From Strigamia acuminata (lineage: Eukaryota; Arthropoda; Chilopoda; Geophilomorpha; Linotaeniidae), in the NCBI GenBank assembly GCA_949358305.1, contig OX442315.1, forward strand, positions 11,620,427-11,684,426: a stretch of DNA of 64,000 bases. The letters are read 5' to 3'. The translations under genes were made by a program, and so were the position numbers. Each line of letters opens with the position of its first letter. The first letter of the stretch is position 1. Shown piece by piece: positions 2,526-30,963 of this stretch. The notes under the pieces are model-generated. The model saw only the letters and a program-made list of their open reading frames with translations. It was not told where the DNA came from and searched no databases.

Positions 2526-5517
2526 ATGGCAGACGGGTAAGATGTCCTTTTCCACGATTCTCTCTATTTTTCTCCACTTTTAACTCAAATCAATGCTATT
2601 ATTCCTTTTAGAGGTGCTACCTGGTGGACTAATCTACTCACCTCAGCTAAAGAAAAGGTAACCAAGCCCCCAAATCACCAAAAAACACATAAAAATGACG
2701 CAACCTTTACAGAGTACAAATGTTTTGGAGTTTATGAAGAGAGATTTGGACGAATTCACTCAAGTTGTTTCATACGAGACCAAATCATACGTGAGCACAG
2801 CAGCTGAAGCTCTCAAGGGGACACTGAATGCAAGAAGTGACGACAAACAGGTGCAAAAAATAAAATAAAAAATACAACCTTTACCAATCAACAACAATTA
2901 TTCAAACATTTCTAGGATGATGAGTCAGCATCAACTGTCAACAAAGTGAAAAGAAGTGTTTCCTCTTTTCTTGGATCAGTTTCCAATGCTCTGTCTTCTG
3001 AAATCGAGAACGAAGAATCAGAAATGTGTGTCATCCAAAATTCAGAACCGGTTATTATGGACAGAGTCCAGGTAAAATAATTCCCGGTGGCCCGTGGCCG
3101 CTGTGGCCTGTCGCGGCCCGCTGTGGCCTGTCCCGACTTCATTAATTGTGGCCCAGACATCCAGATTTCCCGGCAATAAATTTGTTCCCAGTCCAGCCCT
3201 GAATAATTACCGTATTTTACCGATTAAGAGTCGCCTTCGAATAGTAGCCGCGGCTGAGACACCAAGAATAGCGTATTTTTGCAAAAGTACGGTATTGTTT
3301 CCGTATTTAACCTCACGAACGATGAACGTACGCTTCGTTCGTGACGTTCAGACTCCGTTTGTTACATTAAACGAACGTAATAAACGAAAAAAATGTAATT
3401 GCTGACAAAAATGGCAGTTTTGAATAAGAGCCGCGTCTGTTAATCGATAAAATACGAGGAACGATGCGCCAACTGATTGAAATTGTTGTTTATTTCTAAA
3501 AAGGTGCAATTGTACTCGCTGCAAGCCAATCCAAAGACTTATTTGGAGGACCCCGAAGATAATTTGAAGGAGTACGAAGAATGGTTGTCTAAATTTGATT
3601 TGGAGGTTAAGCAGGATGAATTGTGCGATTTGATGGCTAATAATGTTCAAGTGCAGAAGTTGTATACCAAAGTGGTAAGAAGTTGGTTGGAAATTGTTTT
3701 GTTTTTGGTTTTTGATTTGTTTGGTTTGATGGTTTGTTTGCAGGTACCAAGTTCCGTTTCCCACGTTGTATTCTGGCATAGGTATTTTTATAAACTCAAT
3801 CAAATGCTCAAAGCTGAAGAAAGGAAAAAGGAAATTGTTCAACGGGCCGTTGAACCGGGCGATGAAATTGCTTGGGATGAAGGTGAAAAACAAAAAGGGT
3901 GTTTCGGTCAACCGGACCTTGTGTTGTAGTTGCACTTCCTGGGCAGTGAGCTCGTGTCGCCTGCACACTAGGATTGCTGGACTGCTGTTTATGTTCGAAC
4001 GGTTTAATGTTGTTGATGTGTATGGGTTCGAAATTGTCGGGCAAATAATTATAGTCACGATTAAGCACACTTGAAAAGCGAAATCACAGCGAAATAATGA
4101 CCGATGGAAAAGTGGATAAAAATGTTTTTTTTTTTACAAAAATTGGTTTTTATTATAAAAATTGGTTTTTATTATAAAAATTGGTTTTTATTATAAAAAT
4201 TGGTTTTTATTATAAAAATTGGTTTTTATTATAAAAATTGGTTTTTATTATAAAAATTGGTTTTTATTATAAAAATTGGTTTTTATTATAAAAATTGGTT
4301 TTTATTATAAAAATTGGTTTTTATTATAAAAATTGGTTTTTATTATAAAAATTGGTTTTTATTATAAAAATTGGTTTTTTTATTTATTAAAAAATTGATT
4401 TTTTATTTAAAAAAATTGGTTTTTTATTTAAAAAAATTGGTTTTTTATTTAAAAAAATTGGTTTTTTATTTTAAAAAAATGGTTTTTTATTTTAAAAAAT
4501 TGGTTTTTTATTTTAAAAATTGGTTTTTTATATTACAAAAATTGGTTTTTTATTTAAAAAAATTAGTTTTTTATTACAAAAATTGGTTTTTTATTTAAAA
4601 AAAATTAGTTTTTTATTACAAAAATTGGTTTTTTATTTAAAAAATTGGTTTTTTTATTTAAAAAATTGGTTTTTTATTTAAAAAATTGGTTTTTTATTAC
4701 AAAAATGGGTTTTTTATTAAAAAAATTGGTTTTTATTAAAAAAAATTGGTTTTTTATTACAAAAAATAGTTTTTTGTTAAAAAAATTGGTTTTTTATTTA
4801 AAAAATCTGTTTTTTTACTAAAATAATTTATTGCAGAATTGCAAAATTCGTTAAAACAGTGCATCTTTACCTGTGAACCTATCCAAAACCCGTCTAATCT
4901 TAAAAATCATTTAAAAATAACTTTCAGACGAAGATTTTGCCGGTACTCAGGACCTCTCCGAAGCTACGGCCAACGAAGTATTAGCCGCCTACGAAAAGGA
5001 ATGCGAAGTGAAAAACACATCCAGGCAAAGACTCAGCCTTTCCAAGTTGCCCGCTTCGAGCGAACCGCACAAGGCCGCCGTTTGCTCCGTCAAATCCAGC
5101 AGTGAAAGCTTCGTCATGGTCGACGAAGCGTCGCCAGTCTCTTCCAATGAACTCTTAACGAGCACATCCACAGAGAACACCTTCACCACCAAAGAAAAAG
5201 GTGATTTGATCGTCGTGGGCAAGTGTACCAGCATCGGGACTTCGCCCGCATCCAGCAACAAAGGCAGGATTTGCTGTTTTATATTCGTTGGCTTTGATGT
5301 AATCGTTTAAATTTGTTTTTCGTGGATACAGAAGGAAGTAACGACGAGGAATGGGAGAAGGAATTTGAGTTGGAGGTCAGCGAAGATGATGTGCGAAACA
5401 TGAAAGCCGAGCGAGAAGTAAAAGCCGAGGTTAATTGGTAGTTTTGGTTGAAATGTTGTTTAGTGTTACTAACTGTTGCTTTTTTAGGTGGAGGAAGAAT
5501 GGGAAAAATGGGAATAA
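2526..5517 (+). CDS. BSDC1: BSD domain-containing protein 1 homologue (nine exons)
   Basis: Exons: 2526-2536, 2612-2657, 2713-2850, 2916-3071, 3504-3674, 3744-3882, 4928-5263, 5332-5429, 5488-5517. They join without a phase break into 374 aa. Landmarks match animal BSDC1: an N-terminal Trp-Trp pair, the FMKRDLDEFTQVV helix, LYSLQ before a short acidic linker, LYTKV, then the BSD hallmark FWHRYFYK near residue 184, and an acidic Trp-rich tail ending WEKWE. Molecular function is poorly known in any animal. Intron 7 uses a GC donor (AAAG|GCAGGA) with a normal AG acceptor. Intron 6 is 1045 bp and is filled by a minisatellite. A polyadenylation signal AATAAA lies at 5728-5733. A second, reduced copy lies at 7136-17016. 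Confidence 0.9.
4130..4825. repeat. Intronic minisatellite, 19-bp unit
   Basis: From about 4138 to 4375 the 19-bp unit TTGGTTTTTATTATAAAAA repeats almost perfectly about 13 times. It then drifts into 19-21-bp variants (TTGGTTTTTTATTTAAAAAA) until about 4825. It lies inside intron 6 of BSDC1. The open frames across it are repeat translation, not genes. Confidence 0.95.
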
Positions 5518-6892: not shown

Positions 6893-7524
6893 GTATAGCT
6901 GTCTTGGACAATTGTGTTTGTGACCGCGTGCCAATTCAGTCAAAATTTGAGTAGAAACGAGAGAAATTTGTGTAAGTAAATTGCACGTAAGCTCAGAAAC
7001 AATGTCAACCGCTTTTTTGTTTAGGAAAAAAATTATAATCTTGCCAGTAAATTGACACTATAACAGGGAAACTTTCAGTTTCAGTTTACTGAAAGTCCAG
7101 TTGACGAACAAATTTTTACTTTCAGTTTCAGCTAGATGGCGGAAAAAATGTCAAATTTCAGCAAATGTGAAGCGGAAAATGAAGAACTGTTTATTGCGGA
7201 GTATTATAAGGACAGAGTTCAGGTAAAATAATTAAATCGAAATCGCGGTACAGTTCGTGATTCGTGAATTGACGCGCCAACTAATTGAAAATTATTATTT
7301 ATTTCTAAAAAGAGGCAATTGAACTCGCTGCAATCCGATCCAAAGACTTATTTAGAGGACCCCGAAGATAACTTGAAGGAATACGAAGAATGGTTGTCTA
7401 AATTTATGGCTAACAATGTCCAAGTGCAGGAGTTTTATACCAAAGTGGTAAGAAGTTGGTTGGAAATTGTTTTGTTTTTGTTTTTTTATTTATTTGGTTT
7501 GATGGTTTGTTTGCAGGTACCAAG

Positions 7525-8676
7525 TGTAGTGACCCTAGTGATCACTAGTGGAAGAAGTATCAGAAATAAAGTCTGAAAATATTATTTTATTTTAGTTTAT
7601 TTGGTTTTTTATATTTCCTGTCCCCAGACAAGGAAGTTAAGCAGAGTGGGAGGAAATGTGGGTGGTTGCCAGGGTAACCAGCCCACAAGCCTCCAAACAG
7701 GAAATACATCCTGTGAAGAGTGAGAACTCTTCAGTTTTATGTTCATGTTCACCAAGTCAAGTCACACCAAATCTACTCCAGAAATACCAGAATTCTTCAT
7801 TAGATTTGTGACATTTGGAAACACCATGGAACTCATAATCTTGCTGTGAAGAATCCAGCTAGATTCATCTTGTGCCACCACAACTAGTGACACGGGAAGC
7901 CACATTCTTGCTGAGAGGGATCCAGCTAGAGTTCATTCTTGCAATTGTACGAATACAATTGTGAGATTTCATCTTGTCTCAACGACATTGTTGAGAAGGG
8001 ATATTTGTGTGGAAATAGCCACAAGTTGGAGTCGCAACGGATGAGTTGCGAGAGAACGTCGGAGGAACGGAAATTAGTCCGAATTCATCACCGAGTCGGA
8101 ATTAGTCCGTGTCGCCGAGATTCGAGAGTCGAGTCGCGAAGATTCGTATGAGAAGCGAGAGAGAAGTTGCACGGAAATTTGTCCGTTTCGTCGAGAAAAT
8201 CTTCGAGAACGGAATTGAGTCCGGCTACGAGTCATCATTAGTCGGAAATTTGTCCGTGTCGTCGGGAACGAACGCCGGGAGTAGAAAACGAAGATCGGAC
8301 GTCGCGAACGATTTGTGAACGTTGCCGTAACGTCGCCGTAACGTCGCCGTAACGTTGCCGTAACGTCGCCGCGAGATTCACCGCGAACGTCGCCATTTTG
8401 TATTATTTCATCTTTCATTTCTTATTTAATTTTATCATTTAGTCAAATATGTATGATTTTATCACGTATTCCTATTATTTGTATTTCCTTTAAAGCATAG
8501 TTTAAGTTAAGAATAAATCATCTTAGAATTTATTTGAGGAATAACTTGTGTTTATTTTCCCACCATTTTGAGTAAGTTTTATATTAGAGAGTAGTTTTTA
8601 TGATAAGTCTTGTCAAAGCATCAATAAGCTTGGAATTATTCTTTATTAATTTAAGGAGTAATTCAGGCTCATTACA
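7525..8676 (+). repeat. 5' LTR of the pol-less element
   Basis: This 1152-bp repeat is identical to 14935-16086 except at two positions I could find. It contains a short tandem of the unit CGTCGCCGTAA near 8320-8380. A candidate polyadenylation signal, AATAAA, lies at about 8512. Confidence 0.95.
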
Positions 8677-8678
8677 CC

Positions 8679-8700
8679 TGGGGGCCCGTTAAAATTTGAA
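8679..8700 (+). promoter_or_regulatory. Candidate primer binding site
   Basis: TGGGGGCCCG starts two bases after the LTR end, the expected place for a tRNA primer site. The first nine bases match a CCA-ended tRNA acceptor, but I cannot name the tRNA from the following bases. Confidence 0.5.
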
Positions 8701-8925
8701 CCTTAACAACTTTTATTTAGTTGAGGGACCTAATTTGTTTTGAAAATTATTTTGTGAGAGTTAGTTGGATTGAGGAACTTCTTATTTGGAGTTGTAGTAA
8801 AAATAGGTGTGGAATTTTTGTTTTTGTTTGAAAACAAAAAAGGGGGGAAAGGATAACAGAGTTTAGAAGTAATTTCTCTAACTTAAGCTGTTTCTTTCTT
8901 CACTATCCTATCTAATATTAACATC

Positions 8926-11900
8926 ATGTCTGATCATCATAAGAAACAACTACAAGGACCATCGATGGAAGTTCAACAATCATCATTGAGATTGAAAAGA
9001 TATAGTCTGCCACCACATTTGGGATTGTTACGCCACTCAGAAGATATGTCGTCTCCGATTGCCATTAAGAACACAGATGACAGAAAACATTCTAAGATTG
9101 TTCAACGAGATCAAGAAAAATTTTTCCAAGATTACACAATCAAGACGGCTGACCACCAACTACAAGCCAGCCAGATTAGGAGTGGCACATCAACAATCCA
9201 TAAGACATGGCAATCAAGAGATCAAAATGAAATGCATCATTATTCTTCACCACAGAACTATGGAGGAAGATACGATCAACAAGATCAGGAAGTACCGAAA
9301 TACGACATTCGTCATGATAACCGAAATGAGTCGGGACGTGATTGTCGGAACAAAGATAATTCAGAAAGGAGAAACGACTACAGTTCTGCTCGATATGGAA
9401 ATTCAGACAAGAATGAGTTACATCACAGAAATGTAGTAGACATTAATACGACCTTGATAACGAAATATCACTATTCGTACAGCAGTCCGAGGAACGAACA
9501 TCGTTCAACAGGACAAGGAAGTGCATACGCTGATGATCCACGTCGTAGAGATGCTTCACACCATGAAGACAATTTAAGTCAACAGGACTGGCAGAACCAA
9601 CGCGCAAGTCCTTTACCTGGATACGCATATCGTGAAGAATCAGACCGAAAATATTCGGATTCCAAACACTTAAGTCGAAGTGCACCGAGTCATTCAAGAT
9701 ATGACAGAGATGAGCAACGTCAAGAAGAAATGGATTATGATTCTTCAAGAAGTAAACGTGACAACGAAAGACGACACGATAATCACAGAAAAGAAGAACA
9801 TGGTCCTTCTACGTCACGAGAACATTCGTACAAAGACGATTTCTGCCAATACGAGGACTTCCAGTCGCGAAATGAGTCGCACTACCGTGACAAAGAAAGT
9901 CAACGCGAAAACTCAAATTTGCGAAATGAGTCGCACTACCGTGACAAAGAGCGTCAACAAGAGGGCTCACATTCGCGAAACGAGTCACGTTATTGTGGCA
10001 AATCAAGTCACCACGATGATCATCATGTGACTGGACATGGGAATCCGTATGAGAACTCGGATCCGCGAAATGAGTCGCGTCACAGAAGTGAATTACGTTT
10101 TAAGAACAACTCACGTCCATACGAGGACTCAAATCAGCGAAATGAGTCGCGTTGTCAGGACGAAACCCGCCAGAAAAGTGAATCATGTTTTAAAAAAGAA
10201 ACACGTCAACAAAACGCGTATGGTTACTCTAATCAAAATGAGTCGTATCAACGGGAAACTCCTCATCAACGAGACAATTTTCATCAGCAAGACGATTCTC
10301 ACCATCAATTTGAATCTCAGAGGCAAGAGGGATGCCGTTCTAACGATCGAGAACGCCCACAAAGAGATGAGTTACGCCATAGCAATGAGTCGCATCACGG
10401 ATACGAGTTGTGCTCGCGAGGAGAGTCGGATCAACGGCAGGATGATTCATATCAAAATGAGCGACAGAGACGTGCGAGTTCACCACCGCCACGTGCTTGT
10501 GACAATGAGGTCAACCAAAAATATTTGGATTTTGGACATTTGAGGCAGAATAAATCTAGCACTCCAAAACCGCAAGAAAGCCGACAAGAAAAATTCGACT
10601 TTCACTTGGAGGAAAAAGTTTCACCTCCCGGAAATAAACTTGGTTCGCCAGAAAACACAATAAAAGAGCAAGAATTTGTCTTGAAACAAACGGATGATCA
10701 TCTAGCAAAATCTTCATCGAGATCCCAGGAATCAGTGGATTTAACAATGCAAACAGGGCAGTCACCAAAACAATACGTACCACGTGCCACATGTCAAAAG
10801 TGTTCATTGCTAAATCGTACGACATCCTCACCCAGTTACAGGATTGACTTGACACAGTTAGAAGGAATAATTTCGCCAACACATCTCAAGTTAAAAGAAG
10901 TACACAACCGGATGCTAGACTTCATACAGGAAGGGCGTGACAGAAGATGTTATTGCCACATAAGTGAACCAAACTCCCGCGAGGAATATGCTGCATCGAT
11001 AGCCGCGGCGAATGATCGAGTGCAGCGGATAAAACAGATCCGATTAGAAGAGCAACAACTGTGGGAACAATTACGTGTGGAAAAGCGCAAGGAACGTGAA
11101 ACGAAATTGGACAATAAACTCGCGCAAATAAGAATGGAGTCTCAAATAAGCGAAGAACAAAATAAATTAGAAGCTAACAAAGTGCAGTCACAACAACACC
11201 ACGTATCGCACACCACATCTTCACTATGTTCATTATCTGAAAGTGCAAAATCCATTCCACGAAGCGAAATTGATCTCACAAAATTGTCGGGAAGCAAGAG
11301 GTCCACTCCGCGCCGTGAAATCGATCTAACATCGAACATTGAATTAATTTCAATAGCAAAAGGAAGAAGTCGCTGGTTAAGAGAGTTTATGACAACCCCA
11401 TCTATAGAACCAAGTGATAGCATGACAGCAACAATGGAATGCTCGCCAACACAACTTAAATTGCAAAGAGTAAGGCAACGCATGCAGAATATAATACAAG
11501 AAGCAGACGATAGTCTTGAAGACAGACGACATCGCTATCAAATTGGCAGACCAGTCTCTACTAAAGAATTTGTTGCATCGTTAACTGCAGATTACGACCG
11601 CGAACGACGGATGAGTCTAGACAAGCTAGAGGAACAAGAATTGTTAAGTCAACTACGTCGAGAAGAAAGAGATTGTTTGATAAAGGCGGATAAGACGGCT
11701 TCATCCAAAATATCAGTTGACAGCCCGGCATTATCAACAGTACCTTCGCCAACCCGACTTAAGTTGCAAGAAGTACGTCGCCGTCTACAGACTGAAACTA
11801 GAGACAGTCCTGCAGAGACAAAACGTCAATCCAGAGCTGACCAGAAAACTTTAAGATATTTGACCAGTATTGAGGTAACCTCAAGGAGGAGGAAAAGACA

Positions 11901-14898
11901 TAGCTCAACAGTGGACTTAGGAATTTCTGAAGTTACCAAAAGATTGTCATCACCAGTAGCAATGGATGCAGTCAAGAAGGCATTAAAAATGTTATCTACA
12001 TCTGATCAAGGAACAGAAACAATGTCTGAAATGAAGAAAAGCCCAATTCCAGAAACAAAAACATTTTTGATTGATGTTGCAAAAGAGACCCCTTCTGAAA
12101 AAATGAAGAAGACTGACAGCCTGAACCAAGCACTTGTCGTGGAAGGGAAGACAACGAAACCATCATCGCATGTTGAAAACGAAAATTGTCGTAAAGCATC
12201 TCCACCAGCTCAGAAAGACGCGAAGAAGGCAAAACAAGATTTACAAGAGCTGCGGTACATGGCACAGTCGCAGTGTCCACCAGTTAGGAATACAGCAAGT
12301 GTCATGCATCAGCCGGAAGTTGAACAGACCACTACAGATTCAGCGAGAAATTCAGAAAAGCGAGGAAATGACGATACAGAAGATCGTAGAGAGAATAAAC
12401 AAACAGTAACGTCACCTACGCAAAAGAAAATGTTATTTGATGTCATGGACCAGCAGAACCTCCAACATGAGTCAGACAATCAAGTTCAATTGGGTCATGA
12501 CCAACCTGCAACAGGCGACACCATTCTAGAACCAAATGACATCAGAATGTCCACAGCAAGCAAAGAACTTGGCCAAACACAAGTTGACACATGCAGAGAA
12601 GACTGGCCAAACGAAAGAACAATTGCTTTCGAAAATTTGAGTGGTCAAAGAACGAAAATAGATGGTAGACAACAAGAGGAAAAAAGTGTGCAAAGTGCAG
12701 ACGACTCACAACGTGCAGAAGACACACCGGTTGTTGAAAGTGCTGAAATTATGCAAAGTGCGTCAGAATTGGACAAAGAGCAAGCTCAGGAATGTGCGCA
12801 ACCTCTTGATGATGCGAAAAATTTTAATGACACAAAGAACCAAGAGGACACACAGATTGCAGAAAAAATTATCGAATCGGACACAGAAAATTCTATTGTT
12901 AAAAACTTAGAAGAAAATCCATTGCTTTTTCCAAAAAGTGTAGATTTTGAAACTGATGAACAAATTCAACCATTTTCAAAAAAGGGGGGAAGAGTAGTGG
13001 AAAAAGAAAAAGAAAATGAAATTTTGTCATTAAAGAAGCAAGACTTAAACTGCCAAACGGATTCGTCATTTGTCAACCTGAAATCATTGGTAGATCAAGT
13101 AAAGATTCATCATGTGAAACAGCAAACTTCAGTCAACTTTTCATCACCAGCGTTATCCATACCTGATGAAGAAAAACCCACTCAAGATGCAGCAGAATCT
13201 CCGCCACAGTACATTGTCCAGCCGACACTAGCATCAAATGATTTGAATTCTACGGAAACTTCGTCAATTTTACAAAGTCAGAGCACTGTCAACAACATTA
13301 CGTCATCCGTCAAGTTGAAAAATGTGGACATGCGATCACAAGGGAGTCAGACTAATGCAACAGATTTGTCACTGCTTGATGTAACCAGCATGGCGGATAA
13401 GTCATTTCAACATCAACGAAATATTTTGCCAACTGAAGAGTCGAAGTATTCAGTTCAAGTCCAACGAAAAGAAAATTCCAGGAAATCAGAAAATAAATGT
13501 CTGGTTCGAGAAATGAAAATTATTCGAAAACAATTTCGAAAAGTGATCAAAAGTCTAACACATAATATGATGTTACAAGATTCCACGTCTTCACCGAAAT
13601 CATGTAGTCAGCAGAATCCAGAGTGGCCCTCCAAATATTTCATCGAGGCTCTGAAGAACATACTGGAAAACATAACTTCCGAGGACCTACAGGAAGTAAA
13701 AATTTTGATCAAAGAATGTTATCAGCGACTGGATTTGGCAAAGGAAGTTCTACACACCAAAGAAAAATTGGAAGAGCAACCAAATCAAATAATCCAAGTT
13801 GATCAACACTTCAGGGAGTCCAGTGAAGTTAAAAATGCAATGAGGCATAGTCACACAGACCAACCCTACACCGAATCAACTGATCGGCAGAAACATATTG
13901 TCAGTGTGGTTGAAATTGGAAATGGGTCCAAAATTGATTTATCAGATGATTGCAAGATGCTTTGCAGTGTACAGCACACAAGTACAGGATTGAAAAGACA
14001 ACCAGAAAATCAAGATTGCCAAGTATTGACATCAATTGGTCAAATTGAAAAACAAGGTCTACAATCAACAGAAAAAGGAAACAAAATTTTGGAAAAAACT
14101 TTACAGAGAATTGACTTAAAGCAACACAGCACTCAATCAATTGAGTTACCGAAATGTGCTTCCGGCTCAATTACAACTGAAAACATTTCCAAAATTAATT
14201 TATTGGACGCGACCAAAAAATCTGATTGTGGCAATTCAGACAGCAAAGCTACAGTGCCCACTAAAATTACAATTAAGGACACACCTGAAGGAAAACAGCC
14301 AGTTGAAAGTTTTTCATTGTCCAAGTTTGGAATTCAACAGGAATATTTGTCCAACAGTCAACTAGAAATCCAGAAGCAATGGCTCGGAATTGAGAAAATT
14401 GCAGTGAATGAAATCACAACAATGGAAAGCCAAAAGCCATTGAAATTTGAAGCCACAAATGCATCTGCTGTGCAACAGCAATCAGCAGTGACAACGCAAG
14501 TGATGAATCTTGCAACCCAGAATGACCAAGATGACCCCGGCAAAATTTTGCAAGATGCCTGCTCCGGATTGGTAGAACACACAACTGAAGATCAATTGCC
14601 TGTTCGAGCCAACTGGACTGGTCAACTGAAAGAAGCTGCCGGAAGAAGCGGTTGGCAGGATTTTAGTCCTGGGAGCAGGACACCATCTGCAATCACTGGA
14701 CAGAATCAATCGGTTACGACAAGGAATGATCCAACGAAATCCCAGGACAAACTAATGCAGAACAAAAAACCAGCTCAATCAATTAGTCGGTTATCCAGAG
14801 CAAAGATTGACCCGACAAGAGATTTACTGAAGTTTTCGGTCTCCGAGTCTGAAATCCTCATCAAGGACTTCACCTCGAGGATCGATGATGAGGTTTAA
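8926..14898 (+). CDS. 1990-aa ORF of unknown function in the pol-less LTR element
   Basis: One uninterrupted ORF from ATG 8926 to TAA 14896-14898 fills the interior of the element. Residues about 90-540 are hydrophilic, rich in Arg, Asp, Glu, Ser, His and Asn. They contain many imperfect repeats of about 20 residues with the core RNESxxRxxxR. Residues about 620-980 hold three copies of a helical module beginning SPTxLKLxxVxxRM. Next to them are IDLT motifs (xSxxIDLTxL), with a further related IDPT near the C-terminus. A Glu/Lys-rich region and a Gln/Ser/Thr-rich tail follow. I see no zinc knuckle, DSG or DTG protease, YxDD or integrase motif, signal peptide or membrane helix. It could be a highly modified Gag, a captured host gene, or a new trans-acting protein. 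An intact 6-kb frame implies recent selection or very recent birth. Confidence 0.85.
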   Translation: MSDHHKKQLQGPSMEVQQSSLRLKRYSLPPHLGLLRHSEDMSSPIAIKNTDDRKHSKIVQRDQEKFFQDYTIKTADHQLQASQIRSGTSTIHKTWQSRDQNEMHHYSSPQNYGGRYDQQDQEVPKYDIRHDNRNESGRDCRNKDNSERRNDYSSARYGNSDKNELHHRNVVDINTTLITKYHYSYSSPRNEHRSTGQGSAYADDPRRRDASHHEDNLSQQDWQNQRASPLPGYAYREESDRKYSDSKHLSRSAPSHSRYDRDEQRQEEMDYDSSRSKRDNERRHDNHRKEEHGPSTSREHSYKDDFCQYEDFQSRNESHYRDKESQRENSNLRNESHYRDKERQQEGSHSRNESRYCGKSSHHDDHHVTGHGNPYENSDPRNESRHRSELRFKNNSRPYEDSNQRNESRCQDETRQKSESCFKKETRQQNAYGYSNQNESYQRETPHQRDNFHQQDDSHHQFESQRQEGCRSNDRERPQRDELRHSNESHHGYELCSRGESDQRQDDSYQNERQRRASSPPPRACDNEVNQKYLDFGHLRQNKSSTPKPQESRQEKFDFHLEEKVSPPGNKLGSPENTIKEQEFVLKQTDDHLAKSSSRSQESVDLTMQTGQSPKQYVPRATCQKCSLLNRTTSSPSYRIDLTQLEGIISPTHLKLKEVHNRMLDFIQEGRDRRCYCHISEPNSREEYAASIAAANDRVQRIKQIRLEEQQLWEQLRVEKRKERETKLDNKLAQIRMESQISEEQNKLEANKVQSQQHHVSHTTSSLCSLSESAKSIPRSEIDLTKLSGSKRSTPRREIDLTSNIELISIAKGRSRWLREFMTTPSIEPSDSMTATMECSPTQLKLQRVRQRMQNIIQEADDSLEDRRHRYQIGRPVSTKEFVASLTADYDRERRMSLDKLEEQELLSQLRREERDCLIKADKTASSKISVDSPALSTVPSPTRLKLQEVRRRLQTETRDSPAETKRQSRADQKTLRYLTSIEVTSRRRKRHSSTVDLGISEVTKRLSSPVAMDAVKKALKMLSTSDQGTETMSEMKKSPIPETKTFLIDVAKETPSEKMKKTDSLNQALVVEGKTTKPSSHVENENCRKASPPAQKDAKKAKQDLQELRYMAQSQCPPVRNTASVMHQPEVEQTTTDSARNSEKRGNDDTEDRRENKQTVTSPTQKKMLFDVMDQQNLQHESDNQVQLGHDQPATGDTILEPNDIRMSTASKELGQTQVDTCREDWPNERTIAFENLSGQRTKIDGRQQEEKSVQSADDSQRAEDTPVVESAEIMQSASELDKEQAQECAQPLDDAKNFNDTKNQEDTQIAEKIIESDTENSIVKNLEENPLLFPKSVDFETDEQIQPFSKKGGRVVEKEKENEILSLKKQDLNCQTDSSFVNLKSLVDQVKIHHVKQQTSVNFSSPALSIPDEEKPTQDAAESPPQYIVQPTLASNDLNSTETSSILQSQSTVNNITSSVKLKNVDMRSQGSQTNATDLSLLDVTSMADKSFQHQRNILPTEESKYSVQVQRKENSRKSENKCLVREMKIIRKQFRKVIKSLTHNMMLQDSTSSPKSCSQQNPEWPSKYFIEALKNILENITSEDLQEVKILIKECYQRLDLAKEVLHTKEKLEEQPNQIIQVDQHFRESSEVKNAMRHSHTDQPYTESTDRQKHIVSVVEIGNGSKIDLSDDCKMLCSVQHTSTGLKRQPENQDCQVLTSIGQIEKQGLQSTEKGNKILEKTLQRIDLKQHSTQSIELPKCASGSITTENISKINLLDATKKSDCGNSDSKATVPTKITIKDTPEGKQPVESFSLSKFGIQQEYLSNSQLEIQKQWLGIEKIAVNEITTMESQKPLKFEATNASAVQQQSAVTTQVMNLATQNDQDDPGKILQDACSGLVEHTTEDQLPVRANWTGQLKEAAGRSGWQDFSPGSRTPSAITGQNQSVTTRNDPTKSQDKLMQNKKPAQSISRLSRAKIDPTRDLLKFSVSESEILIKDFTSRIDDEV

Positions 14899-14920
14899 AG
14901 AAGTTAGGAACTAACTTCCT

Positions 14921-14934
14921 AAAAAGGGGGGAGG
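14921..14934 (+). promoter_or_regulatory. Polypurine tract of the pol-less element
   Basis: AAAAAGGGGGGAGG directly abuts the TG start of the 3' LTR. This is the standard plus-strand primer position and shows that the element uses normal LTR reverse transcription. Confidence 0.85.
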
Positions 14935-16086
14935 TGTAGTGACCCTAGTGGTCACTAGTGGAAGAAGTATCAGAAATAAAGTCTGAAAATATTATTTTAT
15001 TTTAGTTTATTTGGTTTTTTATATTTCCTGTCCCCAGACAAGGAAGTTAAGCAGAGTGGGAGGAAATGTGGGTGGTTGCCAGGGTAACCAGCCCACAAGC
15101 CTCCAAACAGGAAATACATCCTGTGAAGAGTGAGAACTCTTCAGTTTTATGTTCATGTTCACCAAGTCAAGTCACACCAAATCTACTCCAGAAATACCAG
15201 AATTCTTCATTAGATTTGTGACATTTGGAAACACCATGGAACTCATAATCTTGCTGTGAAGAATCCAGCTAGATTCATCTTGTGCCACCACAACTAGTGA
15301 CACGGGAAGCCACATTCTTGCTGAGAGGGATCCAGCTAGAGTTCATTCTTGCAATTGTACGAATACAATTGTGAGATTTCATCTTGTCTCAACGACATTG
15401 TTGAGAAGGGATATTTGTGTGGAAATAGCCACAAGTTGGAGTCGCAACGGATGAGTTGCGAGAGAACGTCGGAGGAACGGAAATTAGTCCGAATTCATCA
15501 CCGAGTCGGAATTAGTCCGTGTCGCCGAAATTCGAGAGTCGAGTCGCGAAGATTCGTATGAGAAGCGAGAGAGAAGTTGCACGGAAATTTGTCCGTTTCG
15601 TCGAGAAAATCTTCGAGAACGGAATTGAGTCCGGCTACGAGTCATCATTAGTCGGAAATTTGTCCGTGTCGTCGGGAACGAACGCCGGGAGTAGAAAACG
15701 AAGATCGGACGTCGCGAACGATTTGTGAACGTTGCCGTAACGTCGCCGTAACGTCGCCGTAACGTTGCCGTAACGTCGCCGCGAGATTCACCGCGAACGT
15801 CGCCATTTTGTATTATTTCATCTTTCATTTCTTATTTAATTTTATCATTTAGTCAAATATGTATGATTTTATCACGTATTCCTATTATTTGTATTTCCTT
15901 TAAAGCATAGTTTAAGTTAAGAATAAATCATCTTAGAATTTATTTGAGGAATAACTTGTGTTTATTTTCCCACCATTTTGAGTAAGTTTTATATTAGAGA
16001 GTAGTTTTTATGATAAGTCTTGTCAAAGCATCAATAAGCTTGGAATTATTCTTTATTAATTTAAGGAGTAATTCAGGCTCATTACA
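14935..16086 (+). repeat. 3' LTR of the pol-less element
   Basis: Partner of 7525-8676, with the same length and termini. It is followed by CAAG, the second copy of the target duplication, and then by the rest of the broken BSD exon. Confidence 0.95.
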
Positions 16087-16429
16087 CAAGTTCCGTTTCC
16101 CACGTTGTATTCTGGAATAGGTATTTTTACAAACTCAATCGAATGCTCAAAGCTGAGGAATCAGGTGATGAAATTGCTTGGGATGAAGGTGAAAAACAAA
16201 AAGGGTGTTTTGGTCAACCGGTCTTTGTGTTGTAATTGCACTTCCTGGGCAGTGAGCTCGTGTCGCCTGCGCACTAAGATTGCTAGACTGCTGTTTATGT
16301 CGAAACAGTTTAATATTATTGATGTCTATGGGTCCAAAATTGTCAAGAGAAAAATTAGTGTCACGATTAAGCACAATTAATGAAATAATGACCAATGGAA
16401 AAGCGGACAAAAATGGGTCTTTTTTTTTT

Positions 16430-16872
16430 ACAAAAATTGGTTTTTTATTTATAAAATTGGTTTTTTATTTATAAAATTGGTTTTTTATTTATAAAATTGG
16501 TTTTTTATTTATAAAATTGGTTTTTTATTTATAAAATTGGTTTATTATTTATAAAATTGGTTTTTTATTTATAAAATTGGTTTTTTATTTATAAAATTGG
16601 TTTTTTATTTATAAAATTGGTTTTTTATTTATAAAATTGGTTTTTTATTTATAAAATTGGTTTTTTATTTATAAAATTGGTTTTTTATTTATAAAATTGG
16701 TTTTTTATTTATAAAATTGGTTTTTTATTTATAAAATTGGTTTTTTATTTATAAAATTGGTTTTTTATTTATAAAATTGGTTTAATAATGTTTTTTTATT
16801 TATAAAATTGGTTTAATAATGTTTTTTTATTTATAAAATTGGTTTAATAATGTTTTTTTATTTATAAAATGA
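16430..16872. repeat. Intronic minisatellite, 20-bp unit (BSDC1 paralogue)
   Basis: About 20 copies of TTGGTTTTTTATTTATAAAA, with the last few expanded by an inserted TTTAATAATG. It occupies the same intron as the 19-bp array of BSDC1. The shared start TTGGTTTTT suggests the two arrays descend from one seed but expanded separately. Confidence 0.95.
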
Positions 16873-17016
16873 TTATTTATTTGCACAGAAAGACGTCGTG
16901 TTGCGGAATGGGGGAAGAGATTTGATTTGTGGTGGAGCGAATATGAGAAGCAACAACTGGAAGACGCTATGCGAGAAGTAGAATTTTTTCTTCGTGAGCC
17001 TCCTAACTATTGGTAG

Positions 17017-20163: not shown

Positions 20164-20773
20164 TGTGGTGACCACGAGGTCACAAAAGTGTTTTAATTAA
20201 TCATAACCTAATAAATAGTAATTTTAATATTGATAGTAAAATGATTGTCAGATTATTGCGGGAAAATTAGCTATACTAGTTTTACCGTTTCTGCGAGACT
20301 GACGTGACAACGTCATAGATTTGCATAATTCCCCGAATTTATGCAAATACGTCATTTCCGGTCCAGCCACTATTTAAACCCGTGTCTGACCGGAAACCCC
20401 CACTTTATAGATACCAGAGCAACATTAGCATCACCACCTCACCGTCAGGCCGTTTTACCGGATTGATAGAGGATCGATGCCCGTTGCCAATTACATCTAT
20501 AAATCAGAGTCACAGATATTATCGTAGCAATACTACGATCGTAATATCTCCCGAAGCGAAGCGTTTGCGAACACGTGTTTCGCCAGACGCCATTACCCTA
20601 GACAACAGTAGAAGCCACGTGTAAGACTGCCGTGCAGCAACAAATCGTATCCGCCAGCAAGGATCCGAGACCACATTGTTAAGTATCATTATTGTATTAT
20701 TACAAGTGTGAAATAAAGGGTGTTATTAGTAAGATATTGTGTAAGTTTATTTACCGGAATCAAGGTTACGACA
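20164..20773 (+). repeat. 5' LTR of the gypsy element
   Basis: TGTGGTGACC to ACGACA, 610 bp. A TATA-like TATTTAAA lies near 20371. AATAAA at 20712-20717 is the likely polyadenylation signal. It opens with a 7-bp inverted repeat, GTGACCACGAGGTCAC. Confidence 0.95.
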
Positions 20774-20775
20774 CG

Positions 20776-20793
20776 TGGGGGCCTGTCCGGGAT
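20776..20793 (+). promoter_or_regulatory. Primer binding site, tRNA-Pro type
   Basis: TGGGGGCCTGTCCGGGAT matches the complement of tRNA-Pro 3' ends (TGGGGGCTCGTCCGGGAT) at 16 of 18 positions. It starts two bases after the LTR. Confidence 0.8.
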
Positions 20794-20858
20794 AGTTTGA
20801 CTAATCAGACTATTTTAAATAAACGTATCTTACGGTTTGACATTTGCAAACTATCGAA

Positions 20859-23402
20859 ATGACGAAAAGCGGGAAAAATCGAAACCCTTCAACCGCAAGC
20901 GCCCGAAGAAAAGCCATGGAATCCGCCAAGGCAAGGGCCGAAGCATTAGCTAGTCCAGCGTTAGAAAAGCAGCCACCGGAGCCGACGAGGGAAAAGACGA
21001 CTGGAAAGACACCAGTCAACGAAAACCACGCGGAAAAACCACCCGAGAAAGTACCGACCGATAAAACGCCGGCTAGTAAAGTACCCGCTAGCAAAGCCCC
21101 AACGAATAAAACGCCAATAAACCAGCGAATCGAAGGAGAAGTCGAAGAAGAGGAAGAAGAAGAATCCGAACAAAGTCAGAACGGGTATAACCTATTCGAC
21201 AATCAGGATAATCGCCAGAGTAATCGTGTCACGATCACACACGGTTATAATTCGAAGAAATCCCAAATCGATAGCTGTAAAGAAGCGTACGAACTCGCTC
21301 GACTGGAGGGAATCCCTTACGATGAAGAAGGGGACCCGCTAGCACAGATGAACATGATCATTCGTCTTGCCAAAGAGCGAGCGGAAAAACGAGCCCTTAG
21401 AAGGGGTCGAAAAAGCGTAAAACGTCAAAAAACGAATAACCAAACGACGGACTCCTACGATTCCACCCGAACATCCGACGCCGACGACGAAAGCGAGGCC
21501 GATTCCCTCAGCTCGAAAGGAATCAACGTTCAAGGATGGGATAGTATAGTGAACGAGCCAGTCGAAATCCAGAGCGAATTTCTGGAAGCCTTCCAACAGG
21601 ACCGTCGAAATAATAAGGGTCAACAGTCGTGGGCAATCGCCCAATCCTTCGCTACGAGGGCTGGCCACACCAGTCAAACACCAAAGGATCCTAACGCAGA
21701 GATGATTAGACTGATAAATCAGCGAAACCACCTCAGAAACCAGCAAGGACGGAACAGGTTGGCAATGCCAAGCCTCGAGGATATCCAGACGGTACAAGCC
21801 AATGTCGACGCCGCGAATGAGGCGGAGAGAATAAAAATACAAGCCGCCAACGAAGCCGACCGAGAAGCCGCAAGACAAAAAGCACAACTTTACGGCGGGA
21901 GAAAGTCGACCATTTTGATCGGACAGAAGAACGGGGTCCTAACTGGAACAGCCATAAACGGAATTTTCCCCCCCGGAACACAACTGACCGAGTCGCAGCT
22001 AAACTCGACAACACCGACCTTGACCGACCCGAACTCGACCAACGACAATTTCCAACGATTTGCGCCACAAAATGGAGCTACGTCCCCGAACAGTGGGAAT
22101 CAATACCAAGCCGATCCCATAATGGAAGCTAGATTAAGAGCACTCGAGGAACGAGCACGCGCCGACTCCCAGGTCAACCAAAATCGAAATCTGAGAAATC
22201 GCCCAAGACAAAACGAGAGCCTTCTTCGAAAATATTCCGCCGATCAATGGGCCTTAGAACAAAAGGACCGAAACATAAAATGGTCACAGTTGCGACTGAT
22301 GAGATTCGACGGAACTTGGAGGGCCGGCAATAAATTCTTAGACGAAGTGGCACTCACCATTTCACGACTCGGAGCCGAACCCGACGAGATGGTGGCAAAA
22401 GGGCTACCCGAAATGTTAGTAGGGGAAGCCAGAGCCTGGTATGTGGAAGCAAAATTAAAAACTTGGGAACAGTTTGTCGTCGCTTTCAACAGTCAGTACG
22501 GCGAGACACAAAAAGAAATTAGACAGAGAGTCAGTCTCATGCTACAAGCCTCAGGAGAAGAATTACGAGCCTATTTCCGACGAGCGAAAAGTTTGTTCAA
22601 CGAGTTGGATACGCCACTCGACGAATATGCGCAAAACGTGATTTTCGAAAAGGGGTTAAACGACACCTCGAAGAAAGTACTGAGAGATATGAACGCTCCC
22701 ACAGCAGATAGTTTCGAACAGCTGCTAAAATTTGTAAATGACTATCACGAAGAAGTAGACGATCGTTATACGGAAGCCCTGACGCCCGAACAAAGGACAC
22801 AAACACAACTCCGCATACAGCGTATCCATGCTAAAAATCATGACGCAGGGAGACTGATCCAGTCGCGTAGCTTCCTGAACGGAGAAATCGAGGCCGCACC
22901 GCCGAAAAAGGCGAACGATAAAGCCACCTCGAACCCGATACCGGCTCCAAAAGCTTACAGAGCCAGTACGAACTCCGACGCAACTAATCTCGAAGAAGGG
23001 AGGGAAAGTGAAGACAATAACTCCGAGCAGAACTCAGGAGGGGATACCAGCGATAGCCAACAAGAAGAAGAGATTCTCCACGCTAACATGGGGAAAGAAA
23101 TCGCCCCAAGCTACCGACCCCGAATGAAGACCGCGAATAAAACGGAGCACCACAATCCAAAAAGCGATAAACCCTACGAGAAAAAAGAGTTCGTGAGACG
23201 ACCATACCCGAAAACAGATAACTCCACCACAAAACCTTGTAATTACTGTAACGAGATGGGACACTGGAGAAGAGATTGTCCAAAACGAAAGAAGAGGAAA
23301 GAAGAGAAGGAAGCCGCCAAAAACGACGCATTGTTAGAAAAGCTAACAGCTAAATTCGAAGAACTGACAAAAAACTGGTTAAAGCAGACAGAGAAAAAAT
23401 AA
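20859..23402 (+). CDS. gag: Gag of the gypsy element
   Basis: 847 codons from the first ATG at 20859. The frame is open upstream, but only from a TTG. The N-terminal third is Ala/Glu/Lys-rich and probably disordered. A retrotransposon Gag core lies around residues 470-620 (containing MRFDGTWRAGNKFLDEVALT and LRAYFRRAKSLFNEL). Near residue 795 is a CCHC zinc knuckle with spacing C-x2-C-x4-H-x4-C (CNYCNEMGHWRRDCPK). It forms the particle and packages RNA. It ends in two consecutive stops, TAA TAA, at 23400-23405, and the pol frame continues directly in the same frame. Confidence 0.9.
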   Translation: MTKSGKNRNPSTASARRKAMESAKARAEALASPALEKQPPEPTREKTTGKTPVNENHAEKPPEKVPTDKTPASKVPASKAPTNKTPINQRIEGEVEEEEEEESEQSQNGYNLFDNQDNRQSNRVTITHGYNSKKSQIDSCKEAYELARLEGIPYDEEGDPLAQMNMIIRLAKERAEKRALRRGRKSVKRQKTNNQTTDSYDSTRTSDADDESEADSLSSKGINVQGWDSIVNEPVEIQSEFLEAFQQDRRNNKGQQSWAIAQSFATRAGHTSQTPKDPNAEMIRLINQRNHLRNQQGRNRLAMPSLEDIQTVQANVDAANEAERIKIQAANEADREAARQKAQLYGGRKSTILIGQKNGVLTGTAINGIFPPGTQLTESQLNSTTPTLTDPNSTNDNFQRFAPQNGATSPNSGNQYQADPIMEARLRALEERARADSQVNQNRNLRNRPRQNESLLRKYSADQWALEQKDRNIKWSQLRLMRFDGTWRAGNKFLDEVALTISRLGAEPDEMVAKGLPEMLVGEARAWYVEAKLKTWEQFVVAFNSQYGETQKEIRQRVSLMLQASGEELRAYFRRAKSLFNELDTPLDEYAQNVIFEKGLNDTSKKVLRDMNAPTADSFEQLLKFVNDYHEEVDDRYTEALTPEQRTQTQLRIQRIHAKNHDAGRLIQSRSFLNGEIEAAPPKKANDKATSNPIPAPKAYRASTNSDATNLEEGRESEDNNSEQNSGGDTSDSQQEEEILHANMGKEIAPSYRPRMKTANKTEHHNPKSDKPYEKKEFVRRPYPKTDNSTTKPCNYCNEMGHWRRDCPKRKKRKEEKEAAKNDALLEKLTAKFEELTKNWLKQTEKK

Positions 23403-23405
23403 TAA

Positions 23406-26400
23406 ATCTGTCTGCACGCCCGGAAGACCAAACCCCAAAAATTTACCACGAATACGACAATTAACCAAGCAATTAACGAAGTAATTACGGAAGAAGTAGT
23501 CAAATTAAAACTCGAATTAAAAGAGAAAAAATCGAAAGAAATTGAAACAAATAATAAAGAAATTAGCGACTCAAGTTCGGAAGACGAATTAAAAGCCAAA
23601 TGGATAAACACCAATTGGTTAGAAAAACAAATAAAAGAATTACAGAGAAAGGTCGTTTATTTCACTACGGCTTACTTCACCACAGAAAAACGCGAATATA
23701 GTGGCCCAACCACTAATACGGCGGACGGCGAAAAAATAGCCGAAATATTCCAAGAATTACCTCACGCCTACGAGGAGGCCCCACCTCGAAAGAAACGCAT
23801 TTTACATTGTAATTTAGCTAAAGAGAGGAAGGATTCACTCGCGATGTTAACAATCAAGTTCAATGACAAAAAATTCATCGGTTTATTGGATTCGGGAGCC
23901 GACCGGTCCTTCATCTCTTCGGATCTATACGAGTCTTTGGACAAAAAGCAACGCGACAAACTACGGGGAATAAGCGAAAATGTGGCCGTAAAAACCGCTG
24001 CTGGAGAAGTACGTCCAGTAGGGGTACTAACAACAAAAGTCATATGGGAGGGCGGCGTAATAACCCATCCTTTCATCGTTTTACCAACCTACGACACGGT
24101 CCTACTCTTGGGTATGGACATCATGGCCATAATGGAGATCCAGCCCAACCCCATAACGAGGTCCTGGAACTATATCGACCAACGCGAGGACCCCCGACTA
24201 ATGACGGTACCTACCGAACTCCTGGATTCAAACGACGAAGAGGACGAATGGAAAGGCGGAAATTTGAAGCAATTCGTACAAGATTACGATTTCAAATCTT
24301 TTAACGCCCGACTCCAAGAAGGAAATTTGGCTCACAATTTGGCCATGGACGCGAACCTAGGAGAAACCCAGACTAAATTACTTGAAGAAATGCTACAAAA
24401 ACATCGAAAAATCCTGACTAAAGAACCGGGAAAGACAAATTACGTAAAACACGAAATAGAATTAAGTACGGATAAGCCAGTACGAGTTCCATTCAAGGGC
24501 ATGAACCCCCAAAAACGCGAAATCGTCAAGACGATCTGTCAAGACTTACTGGACAAGGGGATAGTGTCCGAGGCACTAGGAGAATACGCGATGAGAATCG
24601 TGCTCGTCATGCGTGCAGGATCGGAACCCAGACTGTGTATCGATTATCGACCTCTAAACGCCATTACCGTTATCGACCCCGTCCAGATGCCATCAATCGA
24701 AGCTATTCTTCGAGAATTAGCCCCATTTAATTGGGTAACAACGATGGATCTGTCGAAAGGATATTGGCAGGTCGAACTCCGTGCCGAAGACAAAGAAAAA
24801 ACCGCTTTCTGGTCCCCGATGGGCAGATTAATGTTTAATGTCATGCCATTTGGCCTAGTGAATGCCCCGGCAACTTTTCAACGATTAATCGAGAAAGTCT
24901 TGGGCGACGCGCTACATAAATACGCCTGGGCTTATCTGGACGATATTATTATTGTTTCCCAAACTTTTGACGAACACCTCGGACATATCGACGAAGTAAT
25001 ACGTCGTTTAGCAAAAGCCGGACTCCACGTACACCCCGGAAAGAGCCAGTTTTGCCGAAAAGAACTTGCGTTTCTTGGATACAAAGTTGGAGTCAATGGC
25101 TTATCCATAGATCCAAAGAAAGTACGAGCAATCACCGAATTTCCAGCACCTACGGACGTGAAAGGGGTACAACGTTTTTTAGGAATGGTAAATTTCTTCG
25201 GCCGACTCCTGCCACATTTAGCGGAAGTCGCGGCCCCAATCACTGATCTTTTAAAGACTGTCCAGAAAATAAATCCAAAAGAGGACCCGCCGAAAGACCC
25301 CGAAATCAAATTTAACTGGACCAGCCATTGCGAAGCAGCGTTTGACAAAATCAAACAAATGCTAATCGACACCAAAACCATCCCTCTTCCAGACTTGAAT
25401 CGCGAATTTATCTTACATACGGATGCAAGTAAAATCGGATTGGGGGCTGCGTTAATGCAGATGCACGAAATCGACGGTACCCAACAAGAAGTACCCACAA
25501 TCTTCATCAGCCGGAAGATTCAAGCCGCCGAGAAAAATTACTCAGCAACCGAGCTCGAATGCTTAGCAATCGTATGGGCAGTCCGAAAATTCAGGCCTTA
25601 CCTCGAATTCACAAAATTTACCGTCCAGACTGACCATCAAGCACTGAGGTGGTTCATGGGCCTTAAAGAACCGTCGGGTCGAATGGCTCGATGGCAATTA
25701 GAACTCATGGCTTACGACTTACAAATCGAATATAAACCAGGGAAATACAACACAGTCGCCGACGCACTCTCTAGAGCTCCCGCCTCAGAACCCGACGAGC
25801 CAGACGACGACGGTGACGACGATTCTCGGATAGCTTACTGTCCCACCCCGATCAGGAAGTGGGAATTCAGAAAACAGAATGAACTGCCAAAAGAAAAGTT
25901 AGAATCTTCCGATGAAAAATACGTCGGATATTGGATGAGGGCATATCAATCGGCAAAAGATGCCAGACCAAATTACGACTTATCCATCGAACCCAGAATC
26001 TCGGATAAATTTGTGCGAGCTTTCGTTGCACACGTGAGTAAAGGCACGAACTGTGTCCCACCTACTCGCGAGGAACTCATCGAAGCTCAGAAGAACGACA
26101 CCGCCTTCTGTAAAAGGTTCTATGACTACTTGACCAACGAGACTTTCCCCAGCGACGTCTACAGCGAAGAATCCAGAGAAGAATTCAAAATTAAGGCATC
26201 CGCTTATCTGATAGACGATGGCCTACTTTTAAAGTACCATCCAAACTTTCGGGACGACTTGACAGAGTCAGGGAGTTCAATTAAAGTCGTAATTCCGAGA
26301 AAGGTTCGAACACAAATTCTGTGGATGGTACACGGCCACCCTCTAGCCGGACATGCCGGCGTGGCCAGGACTCTCTATCGAGCCAGTCAACTGTACTATT

Positions 26401-27704: not shown

Positions 27705-27953
27705 TAAAGCAACAAAATCCAAAATGGTTGGCATAACCAATCAAAAGCGACAAAACAATATGACGTAATTACCCCGACCTCCTAGGGACAAAAACAATCA
27801 CAAGGAGACTCCAACAATCAACTACGTATTACAGACGAAAGCCAATCAAGATACTTAACCTCGACTACCCTTTCAACTTTGCACTCCGCGTTCTGTCACG
27901 ACGACAACAGGTACTTGACAAGAAAAAATCGCAACCAACAAATTAAAATCAAA

Positions 27954-28133
27954 ATGCGAAGAAACTGGAAGCAATCACCCGACAACGAAGAGGAAGAAAT
28001 GGATCGAGACCCAAGCGAAGACGAATGGAACGATCCCGCAAGATGGGACGAGGTCGAACCGGAAGAAAATCGGGAAAAGCCCGATGGTAACGAAAAGGTA
28101 AAAAATTTAACAAAGAATTTAATTCGCGGCTAA
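27954..28133 (+). CDS. Small acidic ORF between pol and ORF3
   Basis: 59 codons from ATG 27954, rich in Glu, Asp and Trp. A good donor (AAG|GTAAAA) lies at 28097/28098. An acceptor-like CAG at 28494-28496 would join it in frame to ORF3, because the ORF3 frame stays open from about 28432 to its ATG. It may therefore be the first exon of a spliced ORF3. This is inference from frame and motif only. Confidence 0.35.
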   Translation: MRRNWKQSPDNEEEEMDRDPSEDEWNDPARWDEVEPEENREKPDGNEKVKNLTKNLIRG

Positions 28134-28526
28134 ACCACGAAAAACACGTGAAACAATATTCATAAAAGAAAACATCTTTATGTCAACAAACGAAAAATTA
28201 CACGAGCCATTATTTAAAATTTCAACACGTGTAAAAAGCACATGGTCGACCATGGCGCCATCTTGAATCCAAATTCGGAATTTAACAAAAATCTAATTTT
28301 TATGTATTCATTCCTCAGCCGGAACACCAACTTACGTGGGGACCCATCGATCCGCAAAACGTGTCTTCGGGTACACTCTGGAGAAGCGAAATTCCGACCC
28401 CATTTCGAAGAGCGTTAGAGGACGACGTAGACACCGGACCATGGAAAATTCGGCTCACTTCAATCCCGAGCCCGATCGCGATTTTGGGCAAGTCAGGAGA
28501 CTTTAATACACTACTTCCCAGAAAAG

Positions 28527-30890: not shown

Positions 30891-30951
30891 ATCTAACTTT
30901 GAGTCTTCGCAATGTTTGTTGTTTTATTGTAAATCCCCCAACAACATTGCT

Positions 30952-30961
30952 GAGGAGGGGA
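30952..30961 (+). promoter_or_regulatory. Polypurine tract of the gypsy element
   Basis: GAGGAGGGGA lies two bases before the TG start of the 3' LTR, the expected plus-strand primer site. Confidence 0.8.
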
Positions 30962-30963
30962 CG

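Follow-up and report, generated by a model that had tools for sequence, protein, structure and literature searches.

The 64,000-nucleotide stretch of Strigamia acuminata DNA analysed here (the window) contains, at positions 7525-16086, a long terminal repeat (LTR) element referred to as element A. Its interior is occupied by a single open reading frame (ORF) of 1990 codons, which was compared with the neighbouring LTR element B (20164-31573) and with element C, an autonomous partner located elsewhere in the genome. The comparison indicates that A is probably a rearranged, non-autonomous derivative of the C lineage. The features of A are collected in Table 1.

A has the features by which LTR retrotransposons are recognised: paired LTRs beginning with TG and ending with CA, a target duplication, a primer binding site and a polypurine tract. 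The two LTRs are mismatched at two positions (7541 A versus 14951 G, and 8119 G versus 15529 A). The empty site is also preserved; an uninterrupted paralogous copy within positions 3640-3860 aligns with both flanks of A and carries one CAAG in the self-alignment. An earlier note on this DNA, made from the sequence alone, had described a young LTR element with 1152-bp LTRs, two differences between them, a CAAG duplication, a primer site and a purine tract, and all of these were present.

At the insertion point, the translated flank resembles a BSD domain with an expectation value (E) of 0.00019, under Pfam's own cut-off. The piece of host gene that contains the BSD-like exon is duplicated in the window (3463-4614 and 7271-16882); one copy is split by A and the other constitutes the empty site.

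The longest stop-free run through the ORF of A comprises 2003 codons, compared with a maximum of 233 in 200 dinucleotide shuffles, which confirms the single intact giant frame reported earlier. The encoded protein contains few hydrophobic residues and several IDLT-like motifs. A reading of IDLT as SUMO-interaction motifs and the presence of mixed-charge domains like those of nuclear-speckle proteins were considered, but neither was retained. No membrane segment or Env-type protein was found in it, the highest 19-residue hydropathy being 0.51; Env-bearing elements of the errantivirus type, in contrast, carry a membrane-spanning Env in the third position.

Two internal modules, at amino acids (aa) 640-760 and 830-935, align at a score of 140, with scores of at most 60 in 500 shuffles. 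They differ at 28, 23 and 40 of 72 codons at the first, second and third codon positions, respectively (third versus others, Fisher p 0.006). This excess of third-position changes points to an old duplication kept as protein, visible even in the single copy A. For aa 600-1010, AlphaFold2 without an alignment predicted helices together with a long coiled coil, at a mean predicted local distance difference test (pLDDT) score of 60; for aa 1480-1990 it gave nothing reliable (pLDDT 39).

No family in Pfam or NCBIfam matched the ORF, no PDB sequence matched it better than about E 0.28, and no relative was present in the viral and genome contig collections. The model of aa 600-1010 had no Foldseek match at E ≤ 0.001 in PDB or viral sets. 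In a set of 5.8 billion proteins, the module pair found no relative among candidates limited to proteins of similar length, and a query of aa 560-1060 gave 0 matches at E 0.1 among 7978 candidates scored. As a control in the same set, the pol of element B found 2788 proteins, the match with the best E-value coming from Cordylochernes scorpioides (38% identity); the set therefore covers animal retroelements, but probably no close species.

The CCHC, protease and integrase patterns tried had no match in the ORF, and its two bare YxDD matches both lie within low-complexity stretches. With gag, pol and the third ORF (ORF3) of B as tblastn queries, nothing better than E 2.9 was obtained against A. 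Ty3/Gypsy reverse transcriptase (RT), RNase H and integrase, none of which was found in A, are present in C and B, so that A is filed under this type only as a non-autonomous derivative. The earlier observation that A encodes no protease, RT, RNase H or integrase was thus borne out by Pfam and NCBIfam, by patterns and by tblastn with B and C. A -1 frameshift at the internal A6G6 tract was also considered and rejected, the pol of B having no significant match in any frame of A.

Table 1. Features of element A in the window (positions refer to the window)
Feature	Position	Strand	Basis or remark
5' target-site duplication CAAG	7521..7524	.	Exact repeat; paralogous empty site has a single CAAG
5' LTR, 1152 bp	7525..8676	+	LTR-pair alignment
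Five CGGA-N5/6-TCCG palindromes per LTR	8068..8256 (5' LTR) and 15478-15666 (3' LTR)	+ (5' LTR row)	Motif scan
Primer binding site	8679..8702	+	First 8 bases TGGGGGCC
Leader purine tract A6G6	8836..8847	+	Sequence match
1990-codon ORF, putative Gag-extension/Pol-tail fusion	8926..14898	+	ORF listing; profile match to C
RNES-rich low-hydrophobicity region, aa 60-560	9103..10605	+	Motif/composition; part (profile 195-519) resembles C Gag 561-869
Three SPTxLKLxxVxxR[ML] motifs, aa 650, 840 and 941, predicted helices	10873..11787	+	Resemble C Gag 73-214
Pol-tail homology, aa 1250-1372	12673..13041	+	Profile match; DNA 12925-13016 77% to C
Internal purine tract A6G6 inside ORF, candidate central polypurine tract	12978..12989	+	Also at L039:8933 (C pol end) and in L041
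~570 residues, aa ~1385-1960, without significant match in C or B ORFs	13081..14805	+	Sequence comparison
FSVSESE close to C terminus, as at C ORF3 end	14833..14853	+	Weak, position-consistent
3' polypurine tract AAAAAGGGGGGAGG, immediately 5' of 3' LTR	14921..14934	+	Sequence
3' LTR, 1152 bp	14935..16086	+	LTR-pair alignment
3' target-site duplication CAAG, within exon of BSD-like gene copy	16087..16090	.	Exact repeat

Relationship to the autonomous element C

With the LTR of A as query, eight LTR pairs were found at a spacing of 14-18.5 kb, the only spacing at which pairs were counted. They are 79-83% identical over the first 477-583 bases, and most also match the A LTR over the last ~100 bases. 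Element C, the LTR pair at C1:48985600-49000628 (read as L039 and L040), is about 15 kb long, starts with the same primer site as A and carries gag, pol and ORF3. A check for an autonomous element with the same LTR ends had been proposed in the earlier note, and C answers it.

The Gag of C comprises 1298 aa from the first ATG and carries a zinc knuckle. Pfam reported no capsid in it; the capsid region was identified because it matches B Gag (30%, E 2e-41), a protein that bears the Pfam gag domain. Pol comprises 1651 aa from the first listed start and is 52% identical to the pol of B; it matches RT, RNase H and integrase, and its protease match falls below the cut-off. ORF3 spans at least 1016 codons with arginine/serine-rich stretches (L040:6-3050) and had no Pfam match at E 0.01.

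A genome search with the pol of C gave 7112 candidates, of which the best 28 places were scored; 26 of these were stop-free, and identity to C pol was 95-100% in 20 and 82-83% in eight. C-like pol is present inside seven of the eight LTR pairs. In all five C-type elements (C included), C gag lies at the start and C ORF3 at the end, and the LTR pairs of three of the five show no difference.

The LTR ends of A and C are 82% identical over 496 columns (A LTR 1-485) and 86% identical over 115 columns (1038-1152), and the region of the LTR end and primer site is 86% identical over 93 columns. At the protein level, a profile from six A-type ORFs, some of them partial, was run against 126 sequences, namely six ORFs of C and B and 120 block-shuffled controls. 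The Gag of C matched at E 8e-39 in three blocks: profile positions 694-833 correspond to Gag 73-214 (the SPT module), 983-1131 to 333-478, and 195-519 to 561-869 (the RNES region). The Pol of C matched at E 3.7e-7, in the tail behind the integrase, where 92 nucleotides (nt) that include the internal purine tract show 77% DNA identity. One of the 120 shuffled controls reached E 1 (0.99) and none went lower, while the ORFs of B had no match to the profile. Across the matched protein stretches, C is ~24-39% identical to A.

When seven A-type loci, some of them partial, were analysed by tblastn, the Gag extension of C was found in 7/7, the capsid/zinc-knuckle region in 0/7 and the pol core in 0/7. 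The RNES block precedes the SPT block in A and follows it in C, so that the domain order has changed. Given the homology to the Gag extension and Pol tail, with the core undetected, A is best read as a rearranged internal-deletion derivative of the C lineage. Such a composition, with a reordered Gag extension, a Pol tail, ~570 residues for which no source was found and loss of the core, is well supported by the sequence comparisons.

In summary of the comparison, C resembles A in its LTR ends, primer site, internal and 3' purine tracts, Gag extension modules and Pol tail, but is ~15 kb long, keeps the capsid, zinc knuckle, protease, RT, RNase H, integrase and a long ORF3, and has RNES and SPT in the opposite order. 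The repeats of the protein were not recognised in the earlier note, and the databases gave no match, but RNES and SPT have counterparts in the long N-terminal extension of C Gag. These counterparts bear out part of the suggestion of a fast-evolving Gag, although A lacks the capsid and zinc knuckle.

Three occurrences of AAAAAGGGGGG were counted in the window, compared with 0.04 expected, and all of them lie within A (leader 8837, ORF 12979 and 3' tract 14921). The A-type copy L041 has purine tracts at the corresponding leader, internal and 3' places, the leader tract being A6G5, a base shorter. C has internal and 3' tracts, the latter common to A and C, and none was found in its leader. The DNA around the internal tract can still be aligned between the two elements, as would suit a role in cis, e.g., as an internal plus-strand start. 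Priming of extra plus-strand starts by the repeated tract would be such a role, though a rather unlikely one.

A-type copies and selection on their reading frame

A search for other copies and a comparison of their ratios of nonsynonymous to synonymous substitution rates (dN/dS) had also been proposed earlier, and both gave results. The genome search with the ORF of A yielded 1659 first-look candidates, of which the best 24 places were scored, so that the number of copies is a lower bound. Three of the 24 have frames of 2003 codons, three of 1716-1965 and 18 of 1446-1491; the two other 2003-codon copies show 98% protein identity to A. Six copies contain one stop each in the matched stretch and 18 contain none. 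At least 17 of the 24 places sit between paired LTRs.

The copies comprise five with A-like LTR starts, the C135 copy (LTR 75-84% identical to that of A) and 18 shorter copies, termed subfamily 3, whose LTR, taken from L041, is 71% identical to that of A over 298 columns. L041 contains an LTR block of 1161 identical bases, and with its LTR as query, 40/40 scored matches (the best 40 of 283 candidates) were 96-100% identical, which indicates that subfamily 3 is young. A second autonomous family (L043; C6:14484799 and seven others) has a pol 82-83% identical to that of C, and its LTR aligns with the subfamily-3 LTR over ~350 bases at 74% and 88 bases at 80%. Subfamily 3 may have this family as its partner.

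Target duplications of 4 bp were compared in 10 of the 12 LTR-locus pairs, C1:9294180/9306467 and C6:15020312 being excluded, and match in seven of the ten elements. The three mismatched duplications belong to the C135, C1:47630860 and C1:48985600 elements, in which the last base is G on the left and T on the right. The duplication of L041 reads CGAT/CGAT once the LTR end is set at ACA, and CGAT/GATG otherwise. At C1:9294180-9307601 (L011, L012) lies an A-like copy with an unusual arrangement, in which ~5 kb separate the upstream LTR from the ORF and neither a primer site nor the ORF follows this LTR, while C6:15020312-15024109 (L015, L016) is a much smaller tandem-like derivative with parts of the A LTR that matches only the end part of the A ORF.

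C-like gag of ~520 nt was observed inside the A-type copies C1:41231355 and C1:39221356 at 73-74% DNA identity; a 290-nt part of it, read in L014, is 76% identical. The stretch is common to both copies and was therefore counted as one event. Exchange of gag would be expected if the RNAs of A and C share one particle.

Codons were compared by the Nei-Gojobori method in eight A-type copies (four of them partial), corresponding to 28 pairs, and stops were left out in three copies. The dN/dS values ranged from 0.46 to 0.68 in 27/28 pairs. Neutral simulations, in which stops were disallowed and substitutions followed the spectrum of the LTRs (648 differences in 8980 aligned bases), yielded mean dN/dS values of 0.82-0.95; the observed value was reached in 0-7 of 60 runs, and in two or fewer for 25/27 pairs.

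These results point to purifying selection on the A ORF. The A-type structure is common to the copies and C is only ~24-39% identical, so the constraint is taken as acting after the A-type arose; the two copies with C-like gag form an exception to this for that stretch.

Proposed mechanism and alternative explanations

The reading that A is a non-autonomous Ty3/Gypsy-type element, descended from the C lineage and copied in trans by C-type enzymes, is assigned a probability of about 0.82. Deletion and rearrangement in an autonomous C lineage, of which many near-identical copies still exist in the genome, would have given rise to A, which the RT and integrase of C-type elements would copy and insert in trans. 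Mobilisation in trans, already suggested in the earlier note, is supported by the presence in the genome of an autonomous family whose LTR ends, primer site and purine tract resemble those of A and whose duplications are likewise 4 bp long.

The coiled-coil modules of the A protein may allow it to co-assemble with C Gag by way of the matching N-terminal extension, and the arginine-rich RNES region of the A protein may bind A RNA, by which A RNA would be loaded into C particles. This role as an RNA/Gag adaptor is put forward with reserve. It is possible, at somewhat under even odds, that A represents a class of retrotransposon satellites that need an independent protein, once a Gag extension and now capsid-less and domain-shuffled, to steer their own RNA into partner particles. 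The two lineages would then co-evolve and recombine, with the internal purine tract conserved in frame.

Several observations weigh against descent from C and mobilisation in trans. Movement of A itself was not observed, and in three of ten elements the last base of the target duplication differs. The match to C Gag, 126 bits, includes a bias term of 85, which is not surprising in sequence of low complexity; C gag was nevertheless recovered by BLASTP after masking and correction for composition (1.6e-14, 4e-7 and 3e-4). The match to C ORF3 is weak, with a whole-sequence E of 0.0016, a large composition bias and best domains at 0.026 and 0.87, and tblastn found C ORF3 in 0/7 A-type loci. The better of these domains (E 0.026) consists of the last 27 residues, where a related small derivative matches over 19 residues at 68% (E 5e-6). 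By single-sequence tblastn the Pol tail of C was found in only 1/7 loci, and aa ~1385-1960 of A match nothing.

The codon comparison has points of the same kind. For two pairs, the simulations arrived at the observed value in 4 and 7 of 60 runs, and the pair L002-L003, with 8 differences, gave a dN/dS of 1.84. Poorly aligned columns were dropped, which could lower dN/dS; the pairs share history, and half of the copies (four of eight) are partial. In codon usage, A is nearer to one host gene than to element B.

The main rival concerning the role of the A protein is that of an interference factor, a capsid-less Gag-derived protein that poisons or regulates the particles of the partner and is kept for copy-number control or element competition. 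A precedent is p22 of Ty1, a Gag-derived protein without part of Gag, which restricts Ty1 by acting on the particles that the complete element forms. A keeps the Gag extension, a possible mediator of contacts between Gag molecules, with predicted helical modules and no detectable capsid, all of which would suit such a factor. However, blocking its own helper would not make an element spread, and subfamily 3 has recently spread in many near-identical copies; interference is regarded as unlikely.

A passive deletion derivative, with a frame open only because the copies are young and with an inactive protein, appears distinctly improbable. The 8 changes between L002 and L003 (dN/dS 1.84) and the stops in 6/24 copies are in its favour. 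In contrast, dS was 0.089-0.191 in 24/28 pairs, all of them with dN/dS of 0.46-0.68, under most neutral simulations, and ~3.5 stops would be expected per 1% of neutral divergence. In the old internal modules, too, third codon positions carry the most differences (28/23/40 of 72 codons). In the earlier note, Gag or Pol homology, or a deletion origin with pol present elsewhere, had been named as findings that would speak against a new kind of element. Such homology exists and pol lies in a related element, but the codon comparison, indicating purifying selection, argues that the A ORF is not passive debris.

Element B as the helper of A is very improbable. Its first ten LTR bases are those of A with one change, and it has the same 8-base primer site and a 4-bp duplication, but no further LTR or protein similarity to A was found, and A is much more similar to C in LTR, leader and gag. 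B, considered on the basis of the common LTR start, was dropped in favour of C.

A host gene captured within an LTR element, as also suggested earlier, appears very unlikely. In its favour, codon usage in A correlates at 0.67 with one host gene and at 0.28 with the second one measured, and no source was found for aa 1385-1960 among the best 24 of 1659 candidates in the genome. Against it, other parts of the ORF show Gag and Pol homology, the excess of A over T at four-fold sites is retroelement-like (+0.31, versus -0.25 and -0.01 in the same two host genes), at least 17/24 scored places lie between paired LTRs, and among the 24 none stood out as a single-copy relative split by introns.

Comparison with known elements and neighbouring features

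Non-autonomous LTR elements are usually taken either to be passengers that code for nothing or to carry a Gag with capsid. The second kind includes the TR-GAG elements of plants, non-autonomous LTR elements that encode a Gag domain (capsid) and no pol. A differs from them as so defined in having a Gag extension, with capsid and zinc knuckle not found, and in its animal-like host.

Large retrotransposon derivatives (LARD) and terminal-repeat retrotransposons in miniature (TRIM) are described, in the cited section, as LTR elements without pol and without internal coding capacity that are thought to be moved by others (PMC3532108); A, in contrast, has a 1990-codon ORF with dN/dS below neutral. 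The TelKA2n element of bdelloid rotifers keeps an ORF that is env-like, whereas that of A is Gag-derived, and the variation of its ORF3 is reported in the cited section to lack a significant excess of synonymous change (PMC5408684). The Ty3/Gypsy-related Cer1 of C. elegans has, according to the cited section, a primer site TGGGGGCC... complementary to tRNA-Pro (PMC3315495). The first 8 bases of its primer site equal those of A, but Cer1 encodes its own GAG and POL.

A is set apart from TR-GAG, TelKA2n and LARD/TRIM by its frame, which appears constrained and Gag-derived and lacks a capsid. In the open-licence literature, within the terms searched, no recognised description was found of a non-autonomous LTR family that retains an ORF derived from Gag but lacking the capsid.

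In this one genome, which appears animal-like from its genes and the relatives of its retroelements, several groups that have lost the capsid and all enzymes keep frames of 1446-2003 codons, with dN/dS near 0.5, beside an intact partner. They offer a testable system for how a retrotransposon parasite secures its packaging and for the role of the very long N-terminal extensions of some Gypsy Gags. They also call for caution: an LTR element without pol and with an 'unknown' giant ORF may be recognisable only against its own genome, as database searches found nothing here.

Of the CGGA-N5/6-TCCG palindromes of the window, 10/11 fall inside the two LTRs of A, in the portion of the LTR that is not common to C. 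RNA hairpins from these palindromes were unsupported (RNA fold z -1.0), which makes DNA sites likelier; they possibly represent a paired transcription-factor site.

The neighbouring element B (20164-31573, 11.4 kb) has 610-bp LTRs without difference, an AACT duplication, gag, a Ty3-type pol and a third ORF of 787 codons with weak similarity to C ORF3. It is inserted in the 3' part of a gene on the minus strand (31489-33414), whose frame now runs into the LTR. The product of this gene is fukutin-related/LicD-like (PDB match at E 5.4e-5; Pfam LicD below cut-off).

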